The notes under the pieces are model-generated. The model was not told the DNA's origin and did not search any database. It saw only the letters and a program-made list of their open reading frames with translations. Source: a virus. Taken from it: a DNA stretch of 39,977 nucleotides. Below are positions 4,537 through 39,938 of this stretch, in pieces. Where the stretch lies: IMG/VR virus record IMGVR_UViG_3300020185_000111, positions 1 through 39,977 of that record; one strand, 5' to 3'. Every line of letters begins with the position of its first letter. Position 1 is the stretch's first letter. The position numbers were made by a program, and so were the translations under genes.

Positions 4537-5013
4537 ATGGAACGTAAACAAGCACCTAAGATGACTTACATACATCCTGACCAAACTTGGAGAATACCTA
4601 AGCGTGGTGAGGATGGTGAATGGTTTCCTATAGTTAGAATAGGTAGGCATGTACCCTTTGGTTACTATCAAGACAAAGATGATAAGAATCTATTACTTCC
4701 TATTCCATCAGAACTAGAGTTACTAGAAATAGCTAAGAAGTACCTTAAAGAATACTCATTACGTATGGTAGCCCGTTGGTTAACTGAAGAGTCAGGACGG
4801 TACATCTCCCATGTAGGATTAAACAAACGTGTCAGCATCGAATACAAAAGGCGTCAAGAAAGTATCACCTATCGAATGTATGAAAGGCGCTACAAAGAAG
4901 CCTCGGAAACGGCGCGTAAGCTCGACCAAGAAAGGCTCGGTGGTATCCAAACAAGAAGATACTACACCACAGACGAAGATAGAAAAGACTATACCAGCGA
5001 CGGTGATACCTGA
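4537..5013 (+). CDS. HTH-type DNA-binding protein beside terminase, probably leaderless
   Basis: The product is 158 residues. Residues about 60-100 (ELELLEIAKKYLKEYSLRMVARWLTEESGRYISHVGLNKRV) look like a resolvase/Hin-type helix-turn-helix that is often found just before large terminase genes in marine phages. Residues 100-135 are a highly charged helix. The first ATG (4537) coincides with the expected transcription start and has no ribosome site; the next, M9 at 4561, also lacks one. The last 185 nt overlap the large-terminase frame. It may be an accessory packaging factor or a regulator; both are inference. Confidence 0.7.
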   Translation: MERKQAPKMTYIHPDQTWRIPKRGEDGEWFPIVRIGRHVPFGYYQDKDDKNLLLPIPSELELLEIAKKYLKEYSLRMVARWLTEESGRYISHVGLNKRVSIEYKRRQESITYRMYERRYKEASETARKLDQERLGGIQTRRYYTTDEDRKDYTSDGDT

Positions 5014-6427
5014 ACCTATTAATGTAGCTAAAGCACAGGATATCATATTCCAACCAAACGAAGGTCCACAGACAGACTTTCTAGCATCTAATGAACAAGA
5101 GGTGTTGTACGGTGGTGCAGCAGGAGGTGGTAAGAGCTACGCAATGGTAGCTGACCCTGTACGCTACTTTAACAACCCTCACTCCCGTGGCTTGTTAGTA
5201 CGTAGAAGTACTGAAGAACTACGGGAGCTTATCTCGGTGTCTAAGCAGCTGTATCCTAAAGCAGTTCCTGGGATTAAGTTTATGGAAAGAGATAAGACTT
5301 GGATAGCTCCAAGTGGTGCTACTCTTTGGATGTCTTATCTTGACAGAGATGATGACGTTATGCGTTACCAAGGTCAAGCTTTTAATTGGATTGGCTTAGA
5401 TGAACTTACACAGTGGCCTACTCCTTACGCTTGGAACTATATGAGATCACGTCTACGTACAACTAAAGCTTCTGGGTTACCTCTCTATATGAGAGCTACT
5501 ACAAACCCAGGAGGTCCAGGACATCACTGGGTGAAGAAGACCTTTATTGATCCTTCCCCAGCTAATAAGACTTTCTGGGCTACTGACGAATACGGAGAAA
5601 CTATATGTTGGCCTAAGGGTCATACACGCGCAGGGGAGCCTTTGTTTAAACGTAGGTTTATACCTGCTAATTTGTTTAATAACCCATACCTAGCTGAAGA
5701 TGGTATGTACGAAGCTAACCTTCTCTCAATGCCTGAGCATCAACGTAGACAACTACTGGATGGCGATTGGAGTGTATCAGAAGGTGCAGCATTTACTGAG
5801 TTTAAACCTAAGATCCATGTAGTAGAACCCTACGATATACCTAATTCATGGTCTAAGTTCAGAGCGTGTGACTACGGTTACGGAAGTATGACAGCTGTAT
5901 TATGGTTCGCAGTAACACCTGCTGAGCAGATAGTTGTATACAGAGAGTTATATGTTAATAAGACTACAGCTGTAGACCTAGCTGGTATGGTTAATGACAT
6001 AGAACGTGGTGAGAAGATACGCTACGGAGTCTTAGATAGCTCACTTTGGCATAACAGAGGTGACACAGGACCGTCTCTAGCTGAGCAGATGATACAAAGA
6101 GGATGTAGGTGGAGACCTTCAGATAGATCAAAAGGGTCACGTATAGCTGGTAAGAACGAAGTGCATAGAAGACTACAGGTGGACGAGTTTACAGAAGAAC
6201 CTAGGTTGGTATTCTTTAACGTCTGTAAGAACATTATAACTGAACTACCTTCACTACCTTTAGATAAGAATAACCCTGATGATGTAGATACTAAGAGTCC
6301 TATTGATCACGGTTATGATGCTTTACGTTACGGACTGATGACTAGACCAAGAAGTAGCTTGTTTGATTATGACCCTAATGCGGCTGGCGCAGGGTTTCAA
6401 GCTGCTGACGATGTTTTTGGATACTAA
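4829..6427 (+). CDS. Terminase large subunit (packaging ATPase and nuclease)
   Basis: This DNA-packaging motor has up to 532 residues. The ATPase shows an adenine-binding segment (FQPNEGPQ, about 74-81), Walker A GGAAGGGKS at 95-103, Walker B with D191-E192 (NWIGLDE) and a TTNPGG coupling motif at 224-229. The RNase H-like nuclease shows D348 (FRACDYG), D403 (VLDSS) and D493/D497 (IDHGYDALRYG). The start is uncertain. GTG 4829, ATG 4880 and GTG 4940 (aagaaagg upstream) all precede the motor domain, and residues 1-60 are Lys/Ser/Thr-rich, a possible by-product of overlap with the preceding gene. The portal gene follows after 15 nt. The protein is anchored at the portal during packaging. Confidence 0.93.
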   Translation: MSASNTKGVKKVSPIECMKGATKKPRKRRVSSTKKGSVVSKQEDTTPQTKIEKTIPATVIPEPINVAKAQDIIFQPNEGPQTDFLASNEQEVLYGGAAGGGKSYAMVADPVRYFNNPHSRGLLVRRSTEELRELISVSKQLYPKAVPGIKFMERDKTWIAPSGATLWMSYLDRDDDVMRYQGQAFNWIGLDELTQWPTPYAWNYMRSRLRTTKASGLPLYMRATTNPGGPGHHWVKKTFIDPSPANKTFWATDEYGETICWPKGHTRAGEPLFKRRFIPANLFNNPYLAEDGMYEANLLSMPEHQRRQLLDGDWSVSEGAAFTEFKPKIHVVEPYDIPNSWSKFRACDYGYGSMTAVLWFAVTPAEQIVVYRELYVNKTTAVDLAGMVNDIERGEKIRYGVLDSSLWHNRGDTGPSLAEQMIQRGCRWRPSDRSKGSRIAGKNEVHRRLQVDEFTEEPRLVFFNVCKNIITELPSLPLDKNNPDDVDTKSPIDHGYDALRYGLMTRPRSSLFDYDPNAAGAGFQAADDVFGY

Positions 6428-6442
6428 TAAGGAAGCGACAGT

Positions 6443-8611
6443 ATGGATGAAGATACAAACGAGATCATCATGGAAGAAGCAGTATCTTCGTATATTGATG
6501 ATATTAAAGAAGATGATAAAACAGATGAGAATGTAGGTTCTGTAGTAGGTTTTGTTACTCAACGCTTCTCTAAAGCTGAAACTGCTCGTTACATAGATGA
6601 GCAACGCTGGATTGTAGCTTACCGTAACTATCGGGGTCTCTATGGCCCTGATGTTCGTTTTACATCTACTGAAAAGTCAAGAGTATTCGTTAAAGTTACT
6701 AAGACTAAAGTATTAGCTGCATATGGTCAAGTTACTGAAGTTCTATTCGGTAATAACAAGTTTCCTATCTCAGTAGATCCTACAACGCTTCCAGAGGGCA
6801 TTACAGAGGCTGTACACTTCGAAAGCAGCTCTGATATGCAAAAGGCTAAAAAGGACGCTCAGGGCGGCTCTCAGAGCCTCTCAGAGCCTAGTATGGATGA
6901 CATGAAGCTAAAGCCAGGAGAGACACTGCCAGACTTAATGGAACGGGTAGGTTCTCTTAAGACTAAACTGGAACCTGTAGGTTCTTCATTAGAAGAGGGT
7001 CTCGGTGGTACAGCTACTGAAGTTACTATCTACCCTGCAATGATAGCAGCTAAGAAGATGGAGAAGAAGATACATGACCAGTTAGACGAGTCTAGTGCCT
7101 CTAAGAAGCTACGTACAGCAGCTTTTGAATGCGCATTGTTTGGCACAGGTGTTATGAAAGGTCCATTTGCTGTAGACAAAGAGTATCCTAACTGGGATGA
7201 AGAGGGTAACTATAAACCACGTATTAAGACAATACCACAATGTGATGCAGTTTCTATATGGAACTTCTACCCTGATCCAGATGCTAACTCTATGGAAGAA
7301 GCTGAGTACATTGTTGAACGACATAAGATGTCTAAGTCTCAGATGAGGTCTCTTAAGAAGCGTCCTTTCTTCCGTGATAACGCTATTGACTTAGCTCTGG
7401 GTTTTGGGCCTTCGTACACTAAAGAGTGGTGGGAGTCTATCATGGAAGATGACTCTACCGAAGTAGTAACAGAACGCTATGAAGTCCTTGAGTTCTGGGG
7501 TTACGTAGATCGTGAAGTACTTGAAGATCATAACGTTGATATTCCTAAAGAACTGAAAGATGCAGATCAGTTAAATGTCAATGTTTGGATATGTAATGAT
7601 CAGGTACTACGTCTGGTTATGAATCCGTTTAACCCACAGATAATACCCTACTACGCAATGCCATATGAAGTCAATCCTTACTCCTTCTTTGGGGTAGGAC
7701 TAGCTGAGAACATGGATGACACACAAACCTTAATGAATGGTTTCATGCGTATGTCAGTAGATAACGCTGCTTTGTCAGGTAACTTAATACTAGAAGTTGA
7801 TGAAAACAACCTAGTTCCAGGCCAAGACTTGTCAATATATCCTGGGAAAGTCTTCCGTAGAAGCGGTGGTGCTCCTGGACAGGCTATCTTTGGTACTAAG
7901 TTCCCTAACGTATCTCAAGAGAATATGCAGATGTTTGATAAGGCTAGGGTTCTAGCTGATGAATCAACTGGTTTACCTAGCTTCTCACATGGGCAGACAG
8001 GTGTCTCAGGTGTTGGTCGTACAGCATCAGGTATCTCAATGCTTATGTCTGCTGCTAACGGTTCTATTCGTACTGTAGTTAAGAATGTAGATGACTATCT
8101 CCTAGCTCCTCTAGGTAAAGCCTTCTTCTCATTCAATATGCAGTTTGACCATGACCCAGAGATCAAAGGAGACCTAGAGGTTAAAGCCCGTGGTACTTCT
8201 TCTCTAATGGCTAACGAAGTACGTAGTCAACGTCTTACACAGTTCTTACAGGTTGTACAGAACCCAGTGTTAGCTCCTTTCGCTAAGATGGACTACATCA
8301 TACGTGAGATTGCTGAGTCAATGGACCTAGACGCTGATAAGGTAGTCAACTCTTTCTCTGAAGCTGCTCTTCAAGCTGAAGTACTTAAGAAGTTCCAAGA
8401 AGCTAACCCTGAGGAAGCTCCTAAACCTGAGGCAGCACCAGAAGGTGGAGACCCCTCTGGTAACGGAGGTGGTACTATAGGAACAGGTGGTGTCCCAACT
8501 CCAGGAGAAGAAGGATTCTCAGGTAACGCAGGTACTCCACCTGCAGGACCAGAGGGTGGACTAGAGGCTTCCCTAAGTTCATACTTAGGTAATAATGGTG
8601 GTGTTCAGTAA
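6443..8611 (+). CDS. Portal protein (head-tail connector)
   Basis: The portal is the dodecameric vertex through which DNA enters and leaves the capsid. It has 722 residues, longer than T7 gp8 (about 536) and near the P22/N4 size class. The signature region RYIDEQRWIVAYRNYRGLYGPDVRFT (about 49-74) and the following EKSRVFVKVTKTKVLAAYGQV are typical of large podovirus portals of marine phages. The acidic first 30 residues and a Gly/Pro-rich tail (about 650-722) flank the core. It starts after taaggaagcg, directly downstream of the large terminase, and its TAA overlaps the next ATG. The family call rests on recalled similarity and position. Confidence 0.88.
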   Translation: MDEDTNEIIMEEAVSSYIDDIKEDDKTDENVGSVVGFVTQRFSKAETARYIDEQRWIVAYRNYRGLYGPDVRFTSTEKSRVFVKVTKTKVLAAYGQVTEVLFGNNKFPISVDPTTLPEGITEAVHFESSSDMQKAKKDAQGGSQSLSEPSMDDMKLKPGETLPDLMERVGSLKTKLEPVGSSLEEGLGGTATEVTIYPAMIAAKKMEKKIHDQLDESSASKKLRTAAFECALFGTGVMKGPFAVDKEYPNWDEEGNYKPRIKTIPQCDAVSIWNFYPDPDANSMEEAEYIVERHKMSKSQMRSLKKRPFFRDNAIDLALGFGPSYTKEWWESIMEDDSTEVVTERYEVLEFWGYVDREVLEDHNVDIPKELKDADQLNVNVWICNDQVLRLVMNPFNPQIIPYYAMPYEVNPYSFFGVGLAENMDDTQTLMNGFMRMSVDNAALSGNLILEVDENNLVPGQDLSIYPGKVFRRSGGAPGQAIFGTKFPNVSQENMQMFDKARVLADESTGLPSFSHGQTGVSGVGRTASGISMLMSAANGSIRTVVKNVDDYLLAPLGKAFFSFNMQFDHDPEIKGDLEVKARGTSSLMANEVRSQRLTQFLQVVQNPVLAPFAKMDYIIREIAESMDLDADKVVNSFSEAALQAEVLKKFQEANPEEAPKPEAAPEGGDPSGNGGGTIGTGGVPTPGEEGFSGNAGTPPAGPEGGLEASLSSYLGNNGGVQ

Positions 8612-9399
8612 TGGATGCTAAGTTATTAGCAACTATCATAGCTATAGCTAAGAAGGAAGCTGGTGCTTTAGCTAAAGATAACAGAGAGTTGGAACGTACT
8701 GTAACTGCTAAGCTACAGGAGTTTCACAAAAGGTCTCCTATTCTAGAGACACCTAAGTTCTTTAGGAAAGGTGGACAGCTCATATGCTCTTGGTCTTCAG
8801 GTTTAACATTAGACTTAGGTAATGTGGTTGGACCTAAGGGGGCTAAAGGCGACAAAGGTGATAAAGGTCTACAAGGCCCAGCTGGTGCCGATGGGCTTAA
8901 TGGTCGTAACGGCATTGATGGTCTTAACGGTAGAGACGGTGTAGACGGACGTAACGGTAAGGATGGAATACAAGGTCCAGCTGGTAAAGACGGAAGCACA
9001 GGTCTGAAAGGCCCAGAGGGTAACCAAGGACCAGCAGGTCCACAAGGTCTCAAGGGTGAAGAAGGTAAAGAAGGTCTACGAGGTCTTAAAGGACAAGATG
9101 GTTCTGATGGTCTTGACGGTGAAGATGGAGACGGTATAGCTAAAGCATGGGTTAGTGAAGATCATCACCTGATGATTAAACTAAACAGTGGACGTACAAT
9201 AGATACTGGTTATGTACGTGGTAAAGCTGGTATCTCTGGTAAAGGTGGTCGTGTCTCAGGAGGCTACGTAGGAGGAGGAGGCGGTGGTGGTAACATCATT
9301 GTACCTCCTGCTGATAATAATAATAATGTAGATGGCGGTGCTGCCGCATCTGTTTATTTAGTAACGCAGCACATTAACGGAGGAACCGCCAGTGGCTGA
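8611..9399 (+). CDS. Collagen-like repeat protein, fibre or head decoration
   Basis: The product is 262 residues. Residues 1-40 form a helical segment suitable for trimerisation. Residues 74-175 are about 34 Gly-X-Y triplets ([30 protein letters not shown]), which predict a collagen triple helix. A short beta segment ([15 protein letters not shown]) follows, then a Gly run (GGGGGGG) and an Asn/Gly/Ala-rich end. Collagen-like stretches in phages usually form rigid fibre shafts. Placement between portal and tail genes points to a fibre or capsid appendage. It overlaps the next gene by 8 nt and probably pairs with it. Receptor binding is not shown. Confidence 0.8.
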
Positions 9400-31693: not shown

Positions 31694-34600
31694 ATGACAA
31701 TGCGTCTTGATGAAGAACAGCAAGATACCTTCAACCCAGTTAACGTAAGTAGAGAACGGACAGAGCTAGGGAAGCCTATCAGTCTTGCTGACTCTATGGA
31801 TAATCTGTTCCCTGTCGTTGAGGGAGAAGATAAAGAAGGGGAGGTAGTAGTACCTGAAGAACCTCAGGTACAGGCAGAGGCAGTAGTACCTGAAGAACCT
31901 GTAACCTCTCAGTTAGACTCTATGTTCCCTGTTGTTGAAGAAGAAGAAGAAATACCTGTAACTGCAGAACTTAAGGTACAAGAATCAATAGTAGAAGAAC
32001 CTATAGACTCTCAATTAGACTCTATATTCCCTGTTGCTGAAGGTACTCCATCACCTATAGTAGAGACTGCCCCAGTAGATACACGGAGTGCTCTAGAGAT
32101 AGCTATGGAAGAAGAGAAAGCACTAGGTGGTGGTACTTCTGAAGATGAGTATGCTGCCTATGCTACTGAAATGCTCCCAGAAGGTGTTGAGGCAGGTTCG
32201 TACTCTCCTGATGATATAGCTGGTAATGAGGCTCTGTACGGTGTAGTTAAGGACTACATGACAGATAAGATAGGGGTACGCGCTGTTAAGACTTACAGTA
32301 AAGAGGAGCTAGTCGATACATTCTTACAGAGTCGCCGTAATGTAGCTATGTCTGGTAACATATGGAGCGTAGGCTCAGAGGTTGACTATCTTGTTAAGAT
32401 CAGCGATGACGAGACCAAGATGAGAAACGCTGCTGCTGCGTATGTTCTTTATGAGAGCATGGCTGGTATTACTTCTGATGATTACAGTTGGGGTGAACTA
32501 GGTCAATCATCTTGGGATGTTATACAGGGTATTGCTACAGACCCAATGACATACCTATCCCTTGGCTTTGGTAAAGTAGCTGGTGCTGGTTTTACTAAGC
32601 TTGGTTCTGACATACTTAACAAGCAGGTTATGAGTCATGCTATGAAGGGCTTAGCTAAGGGTATGTCTAAGGAGGCTGTTAAGGGACAAAGCAAGAATAT
32701 AGCACTTAAAGCTGGTTTAGAAACTGCTGAACAACAAGCTAAGAGTATAGCTAAGTTCACTGCTCAGAATGTAAATAAGACAGGCTTAGAGAAGTTAGCG
32801 AGTCGTGAAGGTGTACGTGAGGTTATAGCTACTGTTGCCTTTGATGCTGCTGCTGGTTCTCTGTCTGAGTATTTATATCAAACTACACTAGTAGACAGTG
32901 GTGTTCAGGAAGACATCAACAAGTACTCTGTCGGTATGGCTGCTGTAGCTACTTTAGTTATTGGAGGTGCTGTCGGTGCCCGTGTTGCTACTAGAGGTTT
33001 TAGTAAGACAGCCCTACCTAATCAGGACGTAGTTGCTGGGTCACCTAAGGTTGCTATTAAGAGGCTACAAACTTCTATAGATGCGCACCTACAGGATGTT
33101 AAGAAGAATAAACCAAAGAGGAGAGTAGTTAAGACTTCCTTTGAAGGTAAGAAGAGTAGAGCTGAGAATACAAAGCTAAGCACTGAGTTTGATACCTTCT
33201 TTGACGAGTTCTTACTGGGTGTATCTGAGACGCTACCAGATGGTTCGGTTAGGACTTTACGTAAGGGTCTTGCTCACGTTATGCAAGAGGAGGGTTTCTA
33301 CAGAAGGACAGGTGGTAAGGGTGACGATACAGCCGCTAATCACTTTGCTAACTTCATTAGAGCTAACTTTACTCAAGCAGATATCATAAGGTTGATTAAG
33401 TCTGGTGAGGATCAGATAGGAAAACGTATGAGAGGCTTCACTGACTCATCCAAAAACCCTCTGGGTACCTACAAGACAGGACCCATGAAGAAGCAACCTA
33501 AGTACCCTACTCCTTCACAATTCGCTGATGCCTTTGCTGCTAGAATTAGCAAGCAAGCTGAAGGTATGGGTGTAGTTAGTAAAGCTGCTTCTTTAATAAG
33601 CGCAGATGTACCTACGTTTCAAGTAGAGGCTATGCTTAAAGGTGCTGCTGATCCTAAGCTTCTTAAGAGTAAAGGCGAGCAAACTCTAGGTTCAAAAGCC
33701 TGGAGTTACCTTTCAGACACTACCGTAGCTGTTCAAGGTAGGTATGTACGTTCCTTGGTTTCAAGCCTTTCTACATCTGCTCTAAACGTACTAGGCTACG
33801 GTGTCGTCACCGCTATGGGTACTACGACTGATCTGGTACGTGCTTTTAGTCTATTGGGAGTAGGAGCTGGTCAACAGTTATTAGGAGAGGCTGCTAGTAA
33901 GACTGGTCTTAAGAACATAAGAACAGGTAGTGATCTCATTGAAGCTAACATTAATCGTATTCAACGTTTGTTTGATAGTGACATGACTGCTGAAGCATTT
34001 AACTCTATATCTCTTAAGAGTACTGGTGCCATAGCACGTATGCTACGTGTACAAGGTGGTGGTGTTGACATGGGTAAAAGTGTTGATGACATTGTAGATA
34101 CTACATGGCTTGGTCGTAAGCACGATAAGTTGATAGAGTGGGGACAGTTTGGCACTCTAGTTAAGACTCAAGATATTATGACTAAATCACAAGAGTTTGT
34201 ATTTCAGATGGATAAGGCTCTCCGTGCAGAGTACGGGATGTCTTGGAATAAGTTCTATGGACCGAAGCACACAGAAGCTACTCGTAAGATGAACACAGCT
34301 AGGTATGCAGAGATTGAAGAAGAAGTCGTAGCTACAGTTATGAGAAACACTTTCTCTGAATCTTATGCAAACACAAGTACCATAGCTAAGATGATTGAGG
34401 AAAGCAGAAGGTATCCTTTTGTAGGTATGTACCTTCCTTTTGGTAAGTTCTTCAATAACACTGTTGCATTTACAGCTCGCAATATGCCTATAGGTAACGT
34501 TGCTATAAAGTATATGGGTAGGGACAAGTTTGAGGATATGCCTTGGAGTGAAGTCTGGTCTAGGAATGTAGTATCAGGTGGCTTGTTATACAGCTATGCT

Positions 34601-35608
34601 GAAATGGGTAAAGAGAGACGTGAGGAAGGTCTAGGTGCATACGAGTTTAGAGACAAAGAGACAGGTGAGATAATAACACATGAGTACGACTACCCAATAT
34701 CTCTGTATGCAGGAGGCGGTATGGTTCTTTCGTATATTCTAGACGGAGAACTACCACCGATGGAGCTTCTTGGACAGTTAGGTACTGACTTCGGTATATC
34801 AGGGCTTACTAGAGGTCTTACTACTACTGCTGATGATGTAACTGAGATGTTTAAGTACCTCCTAGCAGGCGAGATAAGCATTGGTCTTAAAGACCTTGGC
34901 GCTGTTGCAAGTGGTACAATCTCTCAGTATGCGGCTGGTGTAACACGTTCTCTAGATAATGTTGATACCTTAATAGGTACTATCTACGGTGCAGACCGCC
35001 GTCCTACTAACATTAAAGATGGTAACAAGTTCTGGGGTAAGACACTGACTAACTTAGATAACACCGTACAGCTACTCACAGGAGCTACTCAGGGTGATCC
35101 TAAGTTCTCAGCTATCGAAGGCCCCCTTACTGACACAACAGGTAGGCAGACAGGTCTTCGTACTGTTCAGATGACTAACTCTATGCGTATTATGAACATA
35201 CTTTCATATGAATACTGGACTGAGGGTCCGTCTTCTAAGGCCAACAATCTTGCAGCTGGTGCATCTAATTCCTTCAAGAAAGTGTTCTTTCGTAGAACTG
35301 AGGACCTTGCTACTCAGCTAATGAACAGTGATCAGTTTATGTCCTATTCTTTAGAAGATAAACGTAAGCTATGGAACGAGAAGATGTCTGATATTAAGGA
35401 GTTGACACTTCTGGAACTAACTTCTAGTTTTGAAGGTAGGCAGAACACAGCGGCGGCGATGATTAAATTAGTAGATAAGTACCCAAAGGTTGACTTACAT
35501 AATACGATGCGAGCGCTAAATATGAGTACTGATATAGGTGATCTAACTTTAAACGAAGTGCTGATTCTTACTAAGCAACTAGAGATAGACAAGGCTCTGA
35601 GTAAGTGA
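31694..35608 (+). CDS. Large internal virion / DNA-ejection protein (T7 gp16-like size)
   Basis: The product is 1304 residues, close to T7 gp16 (1318). The first 120 residues are acidic and carry three copies of a motif centred on F-P-V-V/A-E at residues 39, 78 and 112, with VVPEEP twice between them. Hydrophobic, Gly/Ala-rich segments near residues 410-440 and 694-735 suit membrane insertion, and RRYPFVGMYLPFGKFF, with NMPIGNVA further on, recurs in podovirus ejection proteins. The peptidoglycan activity found at the N-terminus of gp16 is absent here and may be supplied by the separate lyase-like gene at 27452. Last gene before the terminator. Confidence 0.8.
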   Translation: MTMRLDEEQQDTFNPVNVSRERTELGKPISLADSMDNLFPVVEGEDKEGEVVVPEEPQVQAEAVVPEEPVTSQLDSMFPVVEEEEEIPVTAELKVQESIVEEPIDSQLDSIFPVAEGTPSPIVETAPVDTRSALEIAMEEEKALGGGTSEDEYAAYATEMLPEGVEAGSYSPDDIAGNEALYGVVKDYMTDKIGVRAVKTYSKEELVDTFLQSRRNVAMSGNIWSVGSEVDYLVKISDDETKMRNAAAAYVLYESMAGITSDDYSWGELGQSSWDVIQGIATDPMTYLSLGFGKVAGAGFTKLGSDILNKQVMSHAMKGLAKGMSKEAVKGQSKNIALKAGLETAEQQAKSIAKFTAQNVNKTGLEKLASREGVREVIATVAFDAAAGSLSEYLYQTTLVDSGVQEDINKYSVGMAAVATLVIGGAVGARVATRGFSKTALPNQDVVAGSPKVAIKRLQTSIDAHLQDVKKNKPKRRVVKTSFEGKKSRAENTKLSTEFDTFFDEFLLGVSETLPDGSVRTLRKGLAHVMQEEGFYRRTGGKGDDTAANHFANFIRANFTQADIIRLIKSGEDQIGKRMRGFTDSSKNPLGTYKTGPMKKQPKYPTPSQFADAFAARISKQAEGMGVVSKAASLISADVPTFQVEAMLKGAADPKLLKSKGEQTLGSKAWSYLSDTTVAVQGRYVRSLVSSLSTSALNVLGYGVVTAMGTTTDLVRAFSLLGVGAGQQLLGEAASKTGLKNIRTGSDLIEANINRIQRLFDSDMTAEAFNSISLKSTGAIARMLRVQGGGVDMGKSVDDIVDTTWLGRKHDKLIEWGQFGTLVKTQDIMTKSQEFVFQMDKALRAEYGMSWNKFYGPKHTEATRKMNTARYAEIEEEVVATVMRNTFSESYANTSTIAKMIEESRRYPFVGMYLPFGKFFNNTVAFTARNMPIGNVAIKYMGRDKFEDMPWSEVWSRNVVSGGLLYSYAEMGKERREEGLGAYEFRDKETGEIITHEYDYPISLYAGGGMVLSYILDGELPPMELLGQLGTDFGISGLTRGLTTTADDVTEMFKYLLAGEISIGLKDLGAVASGTISQYAAGVTRSLDNVDTLIGTIYGADRRPTNIKDGNKFWGKTLTNLDNTVQLLTGATQGDPKFSAIEGPLTDTTGRQTGLRTVQMTNSMRIMNILSYEYWTEGPSSKANNLAAGASNSFKKVFFRRTEDLATQLMNSDQFMSYSLEDKRKLWNEKMSDIKELTLLELTSSFEGRQNTAAAMIKLVDKYPKVDLHNTMRALNMSTDIGDLTLNEVLILTKQLEIDKALSK

Positions 35609-35621
35609 AGGTAACAAAAAG

Positions 35622-35651
35622 GCCCACCTAAGGTATTAACCAAAGGTGGGC
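35622..35651. terminator. Bidirectional terminator between converging blocks
   Basis: GCCCACCT (35622-35629) pairs with AGGTGGGC (35644-35651) over 8 bp with a 14-base loop. Five A residues (35616-35620) give the - strand transcript a U5 tract one base after the stem; the + strand has a weaker tract (ttatagttt). It stops transcription from both structural and metabolic blocks. Confidence 0.85.
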
Positions 35652-35658
35652 TTATAGT

Positions 35659-35907
35659 TTAGTCTTCGTATTGTATAAGCAAGTCGGCGTAACGATATGC
35701 TTCGTCTACGAGTTCTTTGGCTCGTATTGATCCCCCACCTCCAGCTATTAAACCTCCAAGGACTGAGGCTGCTAACTGTGCCCTAAGATGGGAGAGATCA
35801 TCTTTTGGACTTTTGGGTGGGGTATTCTTGGTCTTACTTGACTTAAAGGCTTTAGCCTCTTGTTCCAGACTAGGAGCAAGGGGTTTCTTCTTGCTTGGCC
35901 TAGGCAT
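35659..35907 (-). CDS. Small basic protein, last gene of the - strand block
   Basis: The product is 82 residues. Residues 1-40 are Lys/Pro/Ser-rich (RPSKKKPLAPSL, KNTPPKSPKDD), and residues 42-62 (LRAQLAASVLGGLIAGGG) are a hydrophobic, glycine-ended segment that may be membrane-associated or a helix. The end is an Asp/Tyr-rich helix (ELVDEAYRYADLLIQYED) as in small phage proteins of unknown role. The ribosome site aaggat lies 10 nt upstream. Its start is one base from the upstream gene's stop. No function proposed. Confidence 0.6.
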   Translation of the reverse strand: MPRPSKKKPLAPSLEQEAKAFKSSKTKNTPPKSPKDDLSHLRAQLAASVLGGLIAGGGGSIRAKELVDEAYRYADLLIQYED

Positions 35908-35908
35908 C

Positions 35909-36571
35909 TTACATATATCCTTCCAGTACTAACTGTTGTGATGACACCAAGTGTTCTCTTAACCAGTACTCGTCAACGTAGTAAGTAAACTGGTCTTCTA
36001 CTAGTGGTCCTGTAGAGAACTTTAATAGATCAACTTCATCTCGGAATACTATAAAGGTACTCTTGTTAGTAGCGGCTGCTATTACTAATGGTAGTTCAAA
36101 TCCAAAACCATTCTCAATAAAGTGCATTACGGTCAGAGTACCTAGGTGGATTGACATATTAACTAAGTCATCTTTAGAAATAGCTAAGGCTTCCTGTGCT
36201 GTTACGAAGCCGTTGTGAAACCCTAAGATTCCATCAATGCGCATATCAGATGCACCTATGAACGCGAAGGCACACGCACTCAGACACTTAAAACCTTTGT
36301 TGACTGTAGCTTTAACATCGTGTTCGTATAATACAGTTGCTAAGGCAACACCTTCCTTAGCCATACCACCTCTAGAGTCAAAGGCTACTTCTGTTATATC
36401 AGGGTTCATATTAAGAAAGGTATCAGTACGTGCTGACGTTCCCTCTATGAAGTCCCCAGCTATTACTAGTATAGCTTTACTACCGATGTCTACCCTAGTG
36501 AGCTTCTCCGCACTCAGTGATGTTGTAGAAGCTAATGCTATAATTAGTGATGTCGTTAGTTCCTTAATCAT
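35909..36571 (-). CDS. Exported ClpP-fold serine-protease-like protein
   Basis: The product is 220 residues with a signal peptide (TTSLIIALASTTSLSA, likely cut after residue 21), placing it in the periplasm. The mature part follows the ClpP/SppA pattern of the COG3904-type periplasmic family: VAFDSRGGM (62-70), the oxyanion-type turn, then a helix, CLSACAF with probable nucleophile S98, and GFHNGF with H119. A third residue is not assigned. Prohead proteases with this fold lack a signal peptide and lie in head operons, so this is unlikely to be one. It overlaps the preceding gene by ATGA. Envelope remodelling or exclusion are possible roles; neither is shown. Confidence 0.75.
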   Translation of the reverse strand: MIKELTTSLIIALASTTSLSAEKLTRVDIGSKAILVIAGDFIEGTSARTDTFLNMNPDITEVAFDSRGGMAKEGVALATVLYEHDVKATVNKGFKCLSACAFAFIGASDMRIDGILGFHNGFVTAQEALAISKDDLVNMSIHLGTLTVMHFIENGFGFELPLVIAAATNKSTFIVFRDEVDLLKFSTGPLVEDQFTYYVDEYWLREHLVSSQQLVLEGYM

Positions 36572-36906
36572 TTGTGTTTCTCCTCCATTGCTTTAACCAT
36601 CTTGTTAATGTACCACTGAGCCTTGTGGCTATCCTCAACTGGGTTACCTTTGTAACCTGCTCGGTGGTTATACTTCATGGCGTTACCTTTGCAGTAAGCT
36701 ATGAATCCGTCTAGACCTAGTACCTGTTTGATATAGTCAATACATTCGATACCGTCTGTATGATTGTAGTGATAAGGTTTATTAACTGGGTCATAATTAT
36801 CTTTGGTATCTTTGATAGTTAAGTGATCTCTCATTGATTTACATTCTCCACAATCGCCGTTATCATCTACTAGGTATCCACAAGTCATACAAGTGTGTCC
36901 GTACAT
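36568..36906 (-). CDS. DUF3310 protein with zinc-ribbon N-terminus
   Basis: The product is 112 residues. C6-x2-C9 and C19-x2-C22 form a zinc-ribbon-like site. The rest (DPVNKPYHYNHTDGIECIDYIKQVLG, YCKGNAMKYNHRAGYKG, WYINKM) is the DUF3310 domain, sometimes annotated as a phage nucleotide-kinase-related protein, without established catalysis. The ribosome site is aaggag. It lies between PhoH and the exported protease-like gene, in a metabolic block. Confidence 0.85.
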   Translation of the reverse strand: MYGHTCMTCGYLVDDNGDCGECKSMRDHLTIKDTKDNYDPVNKPYHYNHTDGIECIDYIKQVLGLDGFIAYCKGNAMKYNHRAGYKGNPVEDSHKAQWYINKMVKAMEEKHK

Positions 36907-36916
36907 TATAAACTCC

Positions 36917-37651
36917 TTATAGGTTCTCTGAGTGAAACGCTCTAACCCACATTGCTGTTATGTCTGATCTTATAATGTCGTCCATACTGAACTCTACTAT
37001 TGGAACAGGAAGCATATGTTTCTTAGCTATGTGTATAACCTTAGTTAAACCGTCTGCTTCTTTTAGGTCACTTTGTTGAACATCTCCGTTAAGAACAATA
37101 GTACTACATTCTCCTACTCTTGTCAAGAGCATTTTGAGTTCATGTGTAGTTATATTCTGAGTTTCATCTACTATTATAAATGTATTGTCGAATGATCTTC
37201 CTCTCATCAGAGCTAGGGGTGCTATCTCTATGTTGCCGTTCTTAATACCTGTCTCAACTGTACCTTTACCTAAGTGCTTCTCTAGTACGTCTAGTACAGG
37301 TAAAGCCCAAGGCATTGTCTTCTCAGTCAAGTCTCCCTTTAAGAAACCTAACTCTTTACCTACTGCAACGTGTGGTCTAGTTATAACTATCTTGTCTATC
37401 TTCTTAGTAGTGTATAGGTCAGAGGCGAAGGTAGCAGTAACATAAGTCTTACCTGTACCAGCTGGACCTAGTATGAATACCTGATTGGAAGACTTAAGTG
37501 CATCTATTAACTCCTTCTGTTTGCTGGTCTTAGGGGTAAGACCTGACGTCTTCTTAGATACTGCACCTTTGTAAGTAGTCTTACGTCTTGATCTAACTTG
37601 TTTAGAAGGAGGCTCATTGTCGTCATCTATCTTACGTCTAGTCATTGTCAC
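36917..37651 (-). CDS. phoH: PhoH-like ATPase
   Basis: The product is 244 residues with an N-terminal Arg/Lys-rich extension of about 35. Walker A GPAGTGKT is at 62-69, Walker B VDE at 161-163 (FIIVDETQN), and sensor-type LNGDVQQSD follows near 195, matching the PhoH family of phosphate-starvation-induced P-loop ATPases that are common in marine phages. The cellular role in phages is unresolved, with RNA metabolism or stress response proposed for hosts. The start overlaps the preceding gene by ATGA, with aaggtg upstream. Confidence 0.93.
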   Translation of the reverse strand: MTMTRRKIDDDNEPPSKQVRSRRKTTYKGAVSKKTSGLTPKTSKQKELIDALKSSNQVFILGPAGTGKTYVTATFASDLYTTKKIDKIVITRPHVAVGKELGFLKGDLTEKTMPWALPVLDVLEKHLGKGTVETGIKNGNIEIAPLALMRGRSFDNTFIIVDETQNITTHELKMLLTRVGECSTIVLNGDVQQSDLKEADGLTKVIHIAKKHMLPVPIVEFSMDDIIRSDITAMWVRAFHSENL

Positions 37652-37983
37652 ACCTTCTTCTCTAACTCAGCTGCGTCTTGTAGTCTATCCATTACTACAG
37701 CTAGAGCTGCTCCTAGTTCACTGAAGGTAGCTTGCTCTGCTACTTCCTTGATGTTACCCCAAGGTGACTTGAAGGCTTGTACGGTACTACGTGACGTTGG
37801 TTGTGGCTCTGGTTGCGTCATAGTATGTGCTGTAGGTACGGGTGCTGAGAAGGTATTGTTTAGGTAGTTAATAAGTCCAGACTTATCAGTGGGAATCTCT
37901 ATGCTCTTGTAGTCCTTACCCCAAAGCTTCCTAGCGTCAGCTTGTGTACCAGCGTATGTTAAACCGTTTGTATATAGATTCAT
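37648..37983 (-). CDS. Small unknown protein between RNR and PhoH
   Basis: The product is 111 residues. The first 50 (NLYTNGLTYAGTQADARKLWGKDYKSIEIPTDKSGLINYLNN) look like a small folded domain. A Pro/Thr/Gln linker and a C-terminal helix (ATFSELGAALAVVMDRLQDAAELEKKV) follow. Similar small genes occur next to phoH in marine podoviruses as far as I recall, without function. ctaggagag provides the ribosome site, and its TGA overlaps the phoH ATG. Confidence 0.65.
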   Translation of the reverse strand: MNLYTNGLTYAGTQADARKLWGKDYKSIEIPTDKSGLINYLNNTFSAPVPTAHTMTQPEPQPTSRSTVQAFKSPWGNIKEVAEQATFSELGAALAVVMDRLQDAAELEKKV

Positions 37984-38000
37984 GTAGTCTCTCCTAGGTT

Positions 38001-38025
38001 GTAGGTGCAGCTAAGCCACACCTAC
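38001..38025 (-). other. Inverted repeat between RNR and the next gene
   Basis: GTAGGTG (38001-38007) pairs with CACCTAC (38019-38025) around an 11-base loop. No T-tract follows on the - strand, so it is an mRNA stability or processing hairpin, or attenuator, rather than a terminator. It lies in the only gap of about 50 nt in the block. Confidence 0.45.
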
Positions 38026-38033
38026 TGTTGTGT

Positions 38034-39938
38034 TTATGTTAAGTCAACTAACTCACACGTATCTCCTGAGCAAGCAAGAGTTTGACTTCCTGAGGTATTA
38101 TCTTCCTTCTCATAATCAGATAACTTAGACCAATCGATCTCCTTAGGCATTAGTGACTTGAGGGTTTTATAGTCTGAAGCTCCACACTCTTGATAAGGTG
38201 CCTGTTGGTATGTCCCACCGTCATAAGGTAGGAACGACACACCTGACATTTCATCGAAGTGTTTGTATACGAATGCTCCTACTTCCATCCATTCGTGGTC
38301 CTGTACTGAGACCGTTACAGATGGTTTATGCTCACACCAATGACGTTGATACATTAACCATGTCTCTAGTTGTTGTATAGCTGTTACATCGTTACGTAGT
38401 ACTGCTCCTTTAGGTGACTTCTGTGGGAAGCTAAACACTGTAGTAGTATCAGGCTTCATCACACAAGGTTCACTAGGGACTCCTTGATCCTTCATAAACT
38501 GTGTGAGTGGATCTTTGTTGTCTCCACGTACAGTTCTGATGTAGTGCTCAGAGTGACGTGTGTGGATACCTGAGGCGCTGTCTACAAGCTGCGATACAGT
38601 ACCCGATGGTTTGACACAAGTGATAGCGGCAGACACAGGGATACCTAGTTTGTTAGCCCAATGCTTGTTAGTCTTAATAGCTACATCCCGTAGATGTTGT
38701 AGTGTCTTCTCTAGTCCTTTGTTAGATGAAGTCATCAGGGTGTTATCCATGATACCTGTTAGTGATACACCTAGTAGACGCTCCTCATCTGTGTTACGTT
38801 GCCATACCTTACGCAAGTAAGGGAACTTAGTATAGGTAGATTGAATAGTACCAAGTATTGTAGCTAACCTAACTTTATCTGATAGGTCATCTAAGGTATC
38901 CGTAGCCCGTACTACAACCTCCGTCAGATTACAGAACTGATTAGGACGCAGTATGATCTCACTACAAGGGTTAGTACCGAACTCATGGTTAGGGTCACGC
39001 CTACCGTTCTTATCTGCTTGGTTCTTAGCTGCTTGACGATTGAATACTCCACGCTCTCCTGACTTGCTCTCTACTAGTGCAGTCCACTCACGCATGAAGG
39101 TATCCATGTCTGGACGCTCGTTGTAGCAGACACTGTTGTTAGCTAGTGCTCGTTGTGCATCGTTCTCCCACCACTGTCCTGACTTAGCGTGACGCATACG
39201 ATCATCTGATAGGTTAGACAATGATATCATAGCTGATCTTCGCACACCGCCTACGACTACCACCTCACCGATCTTACACATGATGTCGTGACATTCGATA
39301 GAGGCAAGCTTACGTCCTGCTGCCTTACGGAAGATGTCGATAGTGAAGTTGAATAAGTCAACGAGAGGTGCAGGTCCACTAGCACGTCCACCGAAGGTCT
39401 TTAGCTTAGCACCTGCTGGACGTACAAGTCCAATGTCCCACTGAGGAATCTCACCAGCCCATAGCAAGCTAAGTAACTGACGATAAGCCTTAGCCCAACC
39501 CTCCTTGCTATCCTTGACAACAATAGTAGTCTCACTCTTAAACAAGAGGTCAGGTACGTCAGGTAGCTTAGAGACAAACTGACGCTCTACACTGAAGCCT
39601 ACTCCTGTGCCACATAGCAAGATGAACATAGCCTCATCGAATGCTTTAGGATCATCTACTGCTAAGTATGAACAGTTATACATACAGGTGTTGTCACGGT
39701 TAGCCGCTGGACCTGCTGTCATCATTGCTCTCATAGAAGGAGTAATAGCTAACGATGTGATAGCATCACGTATATCTAGGTAGGCCTTACCTTCACCTAT
39801 GTGAGGTACTACCACATTGTCAAGGTAACGGTCTACAGTCTCACTGAAGCTCTCCCTGCGTCCCTCGCTTGCTAACCAACGTGCATAGCGAGAAGTATGT
39901 ATAAAGGATTGGTAGTCTGTAGGTAATATATTACTCAT
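38034..39938 (-). CDS. Class II (adenosylcobalamin-dependent) ribonucleotide reductase
   Basis: This monomeric type of 634 residues reduces ribonucleoside triphosphates to deoxyribonucleotides with a cobalamin-generated thiyl radical. Key residues match the Lactobacillus leichmannii enzyme in spacing: N323 and E327 around C325 (NPCSEI; C408 of that enzyme) and C336 eleven residues later (C419). C89 (YNCSYL) is the likely partner of C336, and a C-terminal CSGDTC pair (C623, C628) fits the CxxxxC thioredoxin-linked site. It is about 100 residues shorter than that enzyme. It needs host or environmental vitamin B12. The upstream partial gene overlaps its start by ATGA. Confidence 0.93.
   Translation of the reverse strand: MSNILPTDYQSFIHTSRYARWLASEGRRESFSETVDRYLDNVVVPHIGEGKAYLDIRDAITSLAITPSMRAMMTAGPAANRDNTCMYNCSYLAVDDPKAFDEAMFILLCGTGVGFSVERQFVSKLPDVPDLLFKSETTIVVKDSKEGWAKAYRQLLSLLWAGEIPQWDIGLVRPAGAKLKTFGGRASGPAPLVDLFNFTIDIFRKAAGRKLASIECHDIMCKIGEVVVVGGVRRSAMISLSNLSDDRMRHAKSGQWWENDAQRALANNSVCYNERPDMDTFMREWTALVESKSGERGVFNRQAAKNQADKNGRRDPNHEFGTNPCSEIILRPNQFCNLTEVVVRATDTLDDLSDKVRLATILGTIQSTYTKFPYLRKVWQRNTDEERLLGVSLTGIMDNTLMTSSNKGLEKTLQHLRDVAIKTNKHWANKLGIPVSAAITCVKPSGTVSQLVDSASGIHTRHSEHYIRTVRGDNKDPLTQFMKDQGVPSEPCVMKPDTTTVFSFPQKSPKGAVLRNDVTAIQQLETWLMYQRHWCEHKPSVTVSVQDHEWMEVGAFVYKHFDEMSGVSFLPYDGGTYQQAPYQECGASDYKTLKSLMPKEIDWSKLSDYEKEDNTSGSQTLACSGDTCELVDLT

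Follow-up and report, generated by a model that had tools for sequence, protein, structure and literature searches.

Secreted proteins that resemble the ClpP peptidase are already known from bacteria and from a few phages. The bacterial forms, for which we take COG3904 to be the family name, include PAN-domain forms encoded on rhizobial plasmids. A survey of HMO-2011-type phages (PMC9038755) treats ThyX, MazG, ARH, Fe-S and phosphate transport genes, and the words Clp, SbmA, protease and peptidase are absent from its main text. Here we describe a ClpP-like protein, termed ClpP-A, that lies in this phage group and in the same operon (RNR, PhoH, MazG) as these auxiliary metabolic genes. ClpP-A shares with the bacterial secreted proteins a signal peptide and the motifs SxGG, CxSxC and GxH, and tblastn comparisons between the two reach E values down to 9e-8. 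The phage family differs from them in forming its own clade (support 96/96), in lacking the C-terminal PAN and linker domains, and in residing in an RNR-PhoH-DUF3310 operon.

A ClpP-like gene in a podophage early operon

The window (the whole 39,977-base virus record analysed here) encodes a capsid protein that is 80% identical to that of Roseobacter phage CRP-13, a PhoH protein up to 87% identical to those of Cobavirinae, and a ribonucleotide reductase (RNR) 78% identical to that of CRP-5. On these sequence grounds, we classify the window phage as a mosaic HMO-2011-type podophage; its host is probably roseobacter-like. The structural genes between 4829 and 31679 are of the HMO-2011 type, and PhoH and RNR (36917-39938) are closest to Cobavirinae (Zobellviridae).

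Table 1. Features of the ClpP-A locus in the window.
Feature	Position	Strand	Evidence or remark
ClpP-A, ClpP-fold protein, predicted periplasmic, 220 aa	35909..36571	-	ORF, AlphaFold model, Foldseek
Predicted signal peptide, predicted cleavage after A21	36509..36571	-	inspection, hydropathy scan, family conservation
G68-G69, oxyanion-hole glycines by analogy with ClpP	36365..36370	-	invariant 38/38
C96-L-S98-A-C100, candidate nucleophile Ser98 (codon 36278-36280) between two cysteines	36272..36286	-	C96, S98 and C100 invariant 38/38
H119 codon, candidate catalytic base	36215..36217	-	invariant 38/38
DUF3310 gene	36568..36906	-	PF11753, E 6.7e-19; 4-nt overlap with ClpP-A
PhoH	36917..37651	-	PF02562, E 8e-65
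111-aa gene of the same operon, function unknown	37648..37983	-	family c34, present in L098 too
B12-dependent ribonucleotide reductase (RNR)	38034..39938	-	phrog_367, E 1.8e-185
c12, 82-aa gene, conserved last operon gene	35659..35907	-	in relatives, cassette lies between DUF3310 and c12
Terminator-like hairpin between convergent early operon and structural genes	35608..35660	.	-21.5 kcal/mol, z -4.35 on - strand
c11, convergent 1304-aa virion-region gene, bounds locus in relatives	31694..35608	+	locus maps of relatives

The ClpP-A open reading frame (220 codons) begins with ATG behind a strong ribosome-binding site, GGAGGAGA, and a 4-base ATGA overlap couples its start to the DUF3310 stop. 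This -4 spacing is by far the commonest in relatives too, and ClpP-A is translationally coupled to DUF3310 behind RNR and PhoH. The family matches listed in Table 1 bear out the initial annotation, which had placed the gene with PhoH, DUF3310 and the reductase; its neighbours are genes of nucleotide metabolism or the early operon, with no head genes among them.

The product begins with a classical signal peptide, MIKELTTSLIIALASTTSLSA, followed after the predicted cleavage site by EKL, as judged by inspection, by a hydropathy scan and by conservation in the family, in agreement with the signal peptide that had been noted from the window. ClpP-A therefore probably reaches the space between the host membranes; the predicted signal peptide speaks against the location in the cytosol that is typical of the ClpP tetradecamer and its AAA+ partner.

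Fold, candidate active site and conservation

Sequence searches with the single window protein recover little. Pfam, NCBIfam and PDB searches were negative or below their cut-offs (no Pfam family matched), phrog_30575 gave a weak match (E 5e-4), and the sole match in the locus search was a 100% identical copy. Among the families matched by 35 ClpP-A members, PF00574 (CLP_protease) is absent. An hhalign comparison with cytosolic ClpP (probability 4%) gave an unreliable alignment and was set aside.

Structure prediction and fold search were more informative. The AlphaFold2 model, built from 35 sequences, has a mean pLDDT of 91.3 and a pTM of 0.85, and in a Foldseek search all of the best 50 PDB matches are ClpP (best E 8.4e-8; TM scores for these matches of 0.39-0.52 by query and up to 0.64 by target). 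The matches in a viral structure library are to Atu_ph07 and to phage Clp proteases. The model thus supports a ClpP fold, within the ClpP/crotonase-fold superfamily. Of the ClpP/SppA fold proposed originally, the ClpP part holds and the SppA part does not: the Ser-Lys dyad of SppA (S49) finds no counterpart, since the family has no invariant Lys and an invariant His instead, and only one of the 35 members matches an SppA model (E 0.05).

The candidate catalytic residues lie where they had been located from the window alone, S98 in KCLSACAF and H119 in GFHNGF. By their order and rough spacing, Gly68-Gly69, Ser98 and His119 would correspond to the oxyanion glycines, nucleophile and base of ClpP (MEROPS S14), with which ClpP-A shares both the fold and the order Gly-Gly, Ser, His. 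ClpP-A differs from S14 proteins in its predicted export, its Cys-flanked Ser, the lack of a conserved Asp and the lack of a Pfam CLP_protease match. The cysteine pair around Ser98 could form a disulfide in the periplasm. The family alignment has no invariant acidic residue, and the site equivalent to ClpP Asp171 in an alignment made by hand is variable; the Ser-His-acid triad therefore looks incomplete.

The first relatives were collected with a fixed-spacing DNA motif scan. Because these carry the motif by construction, conservation was re-tested on a motif-independent set, comprising loci reached through SbmA and c12 together with isolate-phage members found by plain similarity. This set contains 37 unique sequences plus the window (38 in all); many of its loci lie on the same contigs as those of the motif scan, and L161, L240, L252, L266 and L270 do not. 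G68, G69, C96, S98, C100 and H119 are invariant in all 38 sequences, with overall identity in the family falling to 20-25%. An N-terminal hydrophobic export signal is present in every member of the set but two isolate proteins as annotated, Atu_ph08 gp71 and qdvp001 gp044. In both, the annotated start is too far downstream, and an in-frame upstream ATG (L002:1332-1371 and L228:2390-2429, respectively) restores the signal peptide. Phage homologs therefore keep both the key residues and the export signal.

Members in isolated phages (Atu_ph08 gp71, Atu_ph07 gp511, Vibrio VnaP_103 and qdvp001 gp044) have the signal peptide and all key residues of ClpP-A. They differ in genomic context, which is unrelated to the marine locus, with no SbmA or ExbBD neighbours in the annotation. 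In the phylogenetic tree, 40 non-redundant marine rows form one ClpP-A clade (96/96). The family is under purifying selection, with dN/dS values of 0.07-0.18 in six close pairs.

The cassette in marine relatives

In most marine relatives (dozens of contigs), ClpP-A is the first gene of a conserved cassette that occupies the same site. The gene order is ClpP-A, an ExbB/TolQ-like gene, an ExbD/TolR-like gene, a small membrane protein gene (c5), SbmA, a cytosolic ClpP and c12, beyond which a structural gene of about 1200 aa runs in the opposite, convergent direction; contig L066 provides an example (4759-8965). ClpP-A is immediately upstream of the ExbB/ExbD-like genes and tightly spaced with them. 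Some relatives carry optional genes between SbmA and the cytosolic ClpP, namely an M42 aminopeptidase (E 9.5e-86 in L074), a Leu/Glu-type dehydrogenase (the Glu/Leu/Phe/Val dehydrogenase of L035, with homologs in L033, L060 and L074) and a secreted subtilase (a lipoprotein of the S8 family in L065). At L055:2675-3226, a phage lysozyme gene lies within the SbmA/ClpP cassette.

The importer and the cytosolic protease are readily recognized. The phage SbmA matches SbmA_BacA in Pfam (E 3.5e-124) and the solved SbmA structure 7p34 (E 2.7e-99), to which it aligns over its whole length, starting at about SbmA residue 75; what sets it apart from SbmA/BacA is that it is phage encoded and accompanied by ExbB/D-like genes. 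The cytosolic ClpP matches CLP_protease (E 6.1e-28 in Pfam). The ExbB-like gene matches PF01618 (MotA_ExbB) with E 0.003 in L066 and with 1.1e-8 and 9.5e-10 in related modules, and the best Foldseek matches of its product, though weak, are ExbB, TolQ and ZorA. The ExbD-like protein is not recognized by Pfam, and its putative assignment rests on a single N-terminal helix with an invariant Asp. Curli secretion genes are known from pelagiphages, and a curli reading of the cassette was rejected on finding no Csg domains among its genes.

Among the 35 c12 loci whose maps could be read, near-identical contigs included, 27 have ClpP-A, as do all 17 that bear ExbB/D and all 14 that bear SbmA. Many of the relative contigs are near-identical, and these counts therefore overstate independent support. 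Some phages have ClpP-A and the cytosolic ClpP alone, without the importer; the periplasmic protein therefore needs no importer. Conversely, other marine phages have SbmA and ExbB/D but no ClpP-A.

Of the cassette site, the window phage retains just ClpP-A and c12, which are its first and last genes; SbmA, ExbB/D and cytosolic ClpP are found neither in the window nor in a contig of the same phage, the record being incomplete. In the tree, the window groups with L098 (100/99) inside a group of 14 rows (99/89), 11 of which have the cassette. This nesting suggests that the window lineage probably lost the middle cassette genes. Empty sites are found in CRP-9, where a DUF3310-like gene is followed directly by c12, and in CRP-13, where PhoH is followed by c12.

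Parts of the cassette also occur elsewhere. Other marine phages have an ExbB-ExbD-c5-SbmA block with ClpS (for example, L192:5020-7957 and L223:2522-8348), once also with ClpP (L223, where DnaK-like and Hsp20-like genes were seen by eye). Marine viral contigs often encode SbmA-like importers: a relative is present in 277 of 319 candidate stretches (L163-L225), many of them in phages whose gene content is quite different. Four relatives of the ExbD-like gene in genome contigs have no SbmA or ClpP-A neighbours, and bacterial (Desulfobacterales) ExbB-ExbD-c5-like genes occur without SbmA in L273, L274 and L275. No SbmA was found in credible phage isolates; the SbmA-bearing records S.Kent 1-2-1 and Acinetobacter MD-2021a appear to be contaminated with host DNA and were left out of the count.

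Proposed protein and peptide salvage and alternative roles

The initial annotation had envisaged that ClpP-A cleaves or blocks an envelope protein, protects against superinfection or quiets an envelope stress signal. The company of SbmA, ExbB/D, ClpP and, in some phages, an aminopeptidase, a dehydrogenase or a second secreted protease points instead to protein or peptide turnover, a link that is not visible in the window alone because its phage appears to have lost those cassette genes. We propose, with about even confidence, that ClpP-A is a periplasmic ClpP-fold serine peptidase (COG3904-like) that performs the first step of a phage salvage route for proteins and peptides. The fold, the export signal, the conserved Ser, His, Gly-Gly and Cys residues, the operon position, the cassette linkage and purifying selection are each supported by the observations above; we infer catalysis by ClpP-A, its substrates, the feeding of peptides to the importer and the role of ExbB/D.

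In the proposed route, the exported peptidase would cut periplasmic proteins and the phage SbmA-type importer would take in the resulting peptides, SbmA being described as a proton-motive-force-dependent inner-membrane peptide transporter (PMC13162253). The cytosolic ClpP and, in some phages, the M42 aminopeptidase would finish the peptides, from which the amino-acid dehydrogenase of some phages could release ammonia and reducing power. Drawing on the proton gradient, the ExbB/ExbD-like pair may, with the small membrane protein, energize or tether the periplasmic step. The window phage would carry out the periplasmic peptidase step alone, relying on host uptake systems, and the adjoining RNR and PhoH serve phage production.

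An alternative is that one particular envelope protein of the host, such as a receptor or a protein of secretion or stress signalling, is the target of the peptidase, whose cut would block superinfection or ease later lysis, and that ExbB/D and SbmA are a separate, co-travelling function. Periplasm-directed proteins of phage lysis control are known, T4 RI being an example (PMC8385771), and ClpP-A is found without the importer cassette, with the Atu_ph07, Atu_ph08, VnaP and qdvp001 members in unrelated contexts. This reading appears doubtful given that the gene has a fixed place in the nucleotide/early operon, where its neighbours are SbmA and cytosolic ClpP rather than lysis or receptor-binding genes; moreover, exclusion would have no use for the aminopeptidase and amino-acid dehydrogenase that belong to the same cassette. 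The periplasm has no ATP, and a ClpP located there therefore lacks an AAA+ partner, which raises another scenario: ExbB/ExbD could exert force on ClpP-A, much as ClpX acts on ClpP with ATP, in a proton-driven quality-control machine that clears misfolded or host envelope proteins while SbmA removes the peptides. The tight spacing of these genes and their co-occurrence in all 17 ExbB/D-bearing c12 loci favour such a machine, but several phages, that of the window included, have ClpP-A without ExbB/D, and ExbB/D-SbmA blocks occur elsewhere without ClpP-A; we consider it improbable.

ClpP-A might also be a catalytically dead, ClpP-fold binding protein that acts as an inhibitor, scaffold or decoy, as its unconserved third triad residue and its great sequence distance from ClpP would allow. 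Drift would be expected at an inactive site, however, and retention of Ser98, His119 and the oxyanion glycines in 38 of 38 sequences, with overall identity falling to 20-25%, makes this quite improbable. The idea of an ordinary head-maturation protease displaced in the genome draws on weak similarity to families of head maturation proteases but can hardly be credited: the match to NF045542 scores 15.5 bits against a curated cut-off of 120, the family has a signal peptide, the gene lies in the early operon rather than among head genes, and the close relatives CRP-9 and CRP-13 have no such gene there.

Our literature search, with most subscription journals and bioRxiv preprints outside its reach, returned no published description of an SbmA/ExbBD/ClpP cassette, nor any that treats the phage family as one conserved clade, and the cassette has a fair chance of representing a new viral strategy. 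The prevailing view is that phages assemble virions out of intracellular amino acids plus degraded host material. We suggest tentatively, at somewhat less than even confidence, that the marine cassette constitutes a complete periplasm-to-cytosol salvage system, in which a secreted protease (the window gene), a proton-driven energizer, a peptide importer, cytosolic ClpP, an aminopeptidase and an amino-acid dehydrogenase would derive amino acids, energy and nitrogen from dissolved protein or from proteins of the host envelope. Such phages may feed on host envelope proteins during infection. If so, an exported protease, a peptide importer and amino-acid catabolism would together represent a new form of viral self-supply in one of the most abundant groups of marine phages. 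The natural substrate of SbmA in bacteria is unsettled, and the cassette would bear both on what SbmA normally transports and on the function of secreted ClpP-like proteins.
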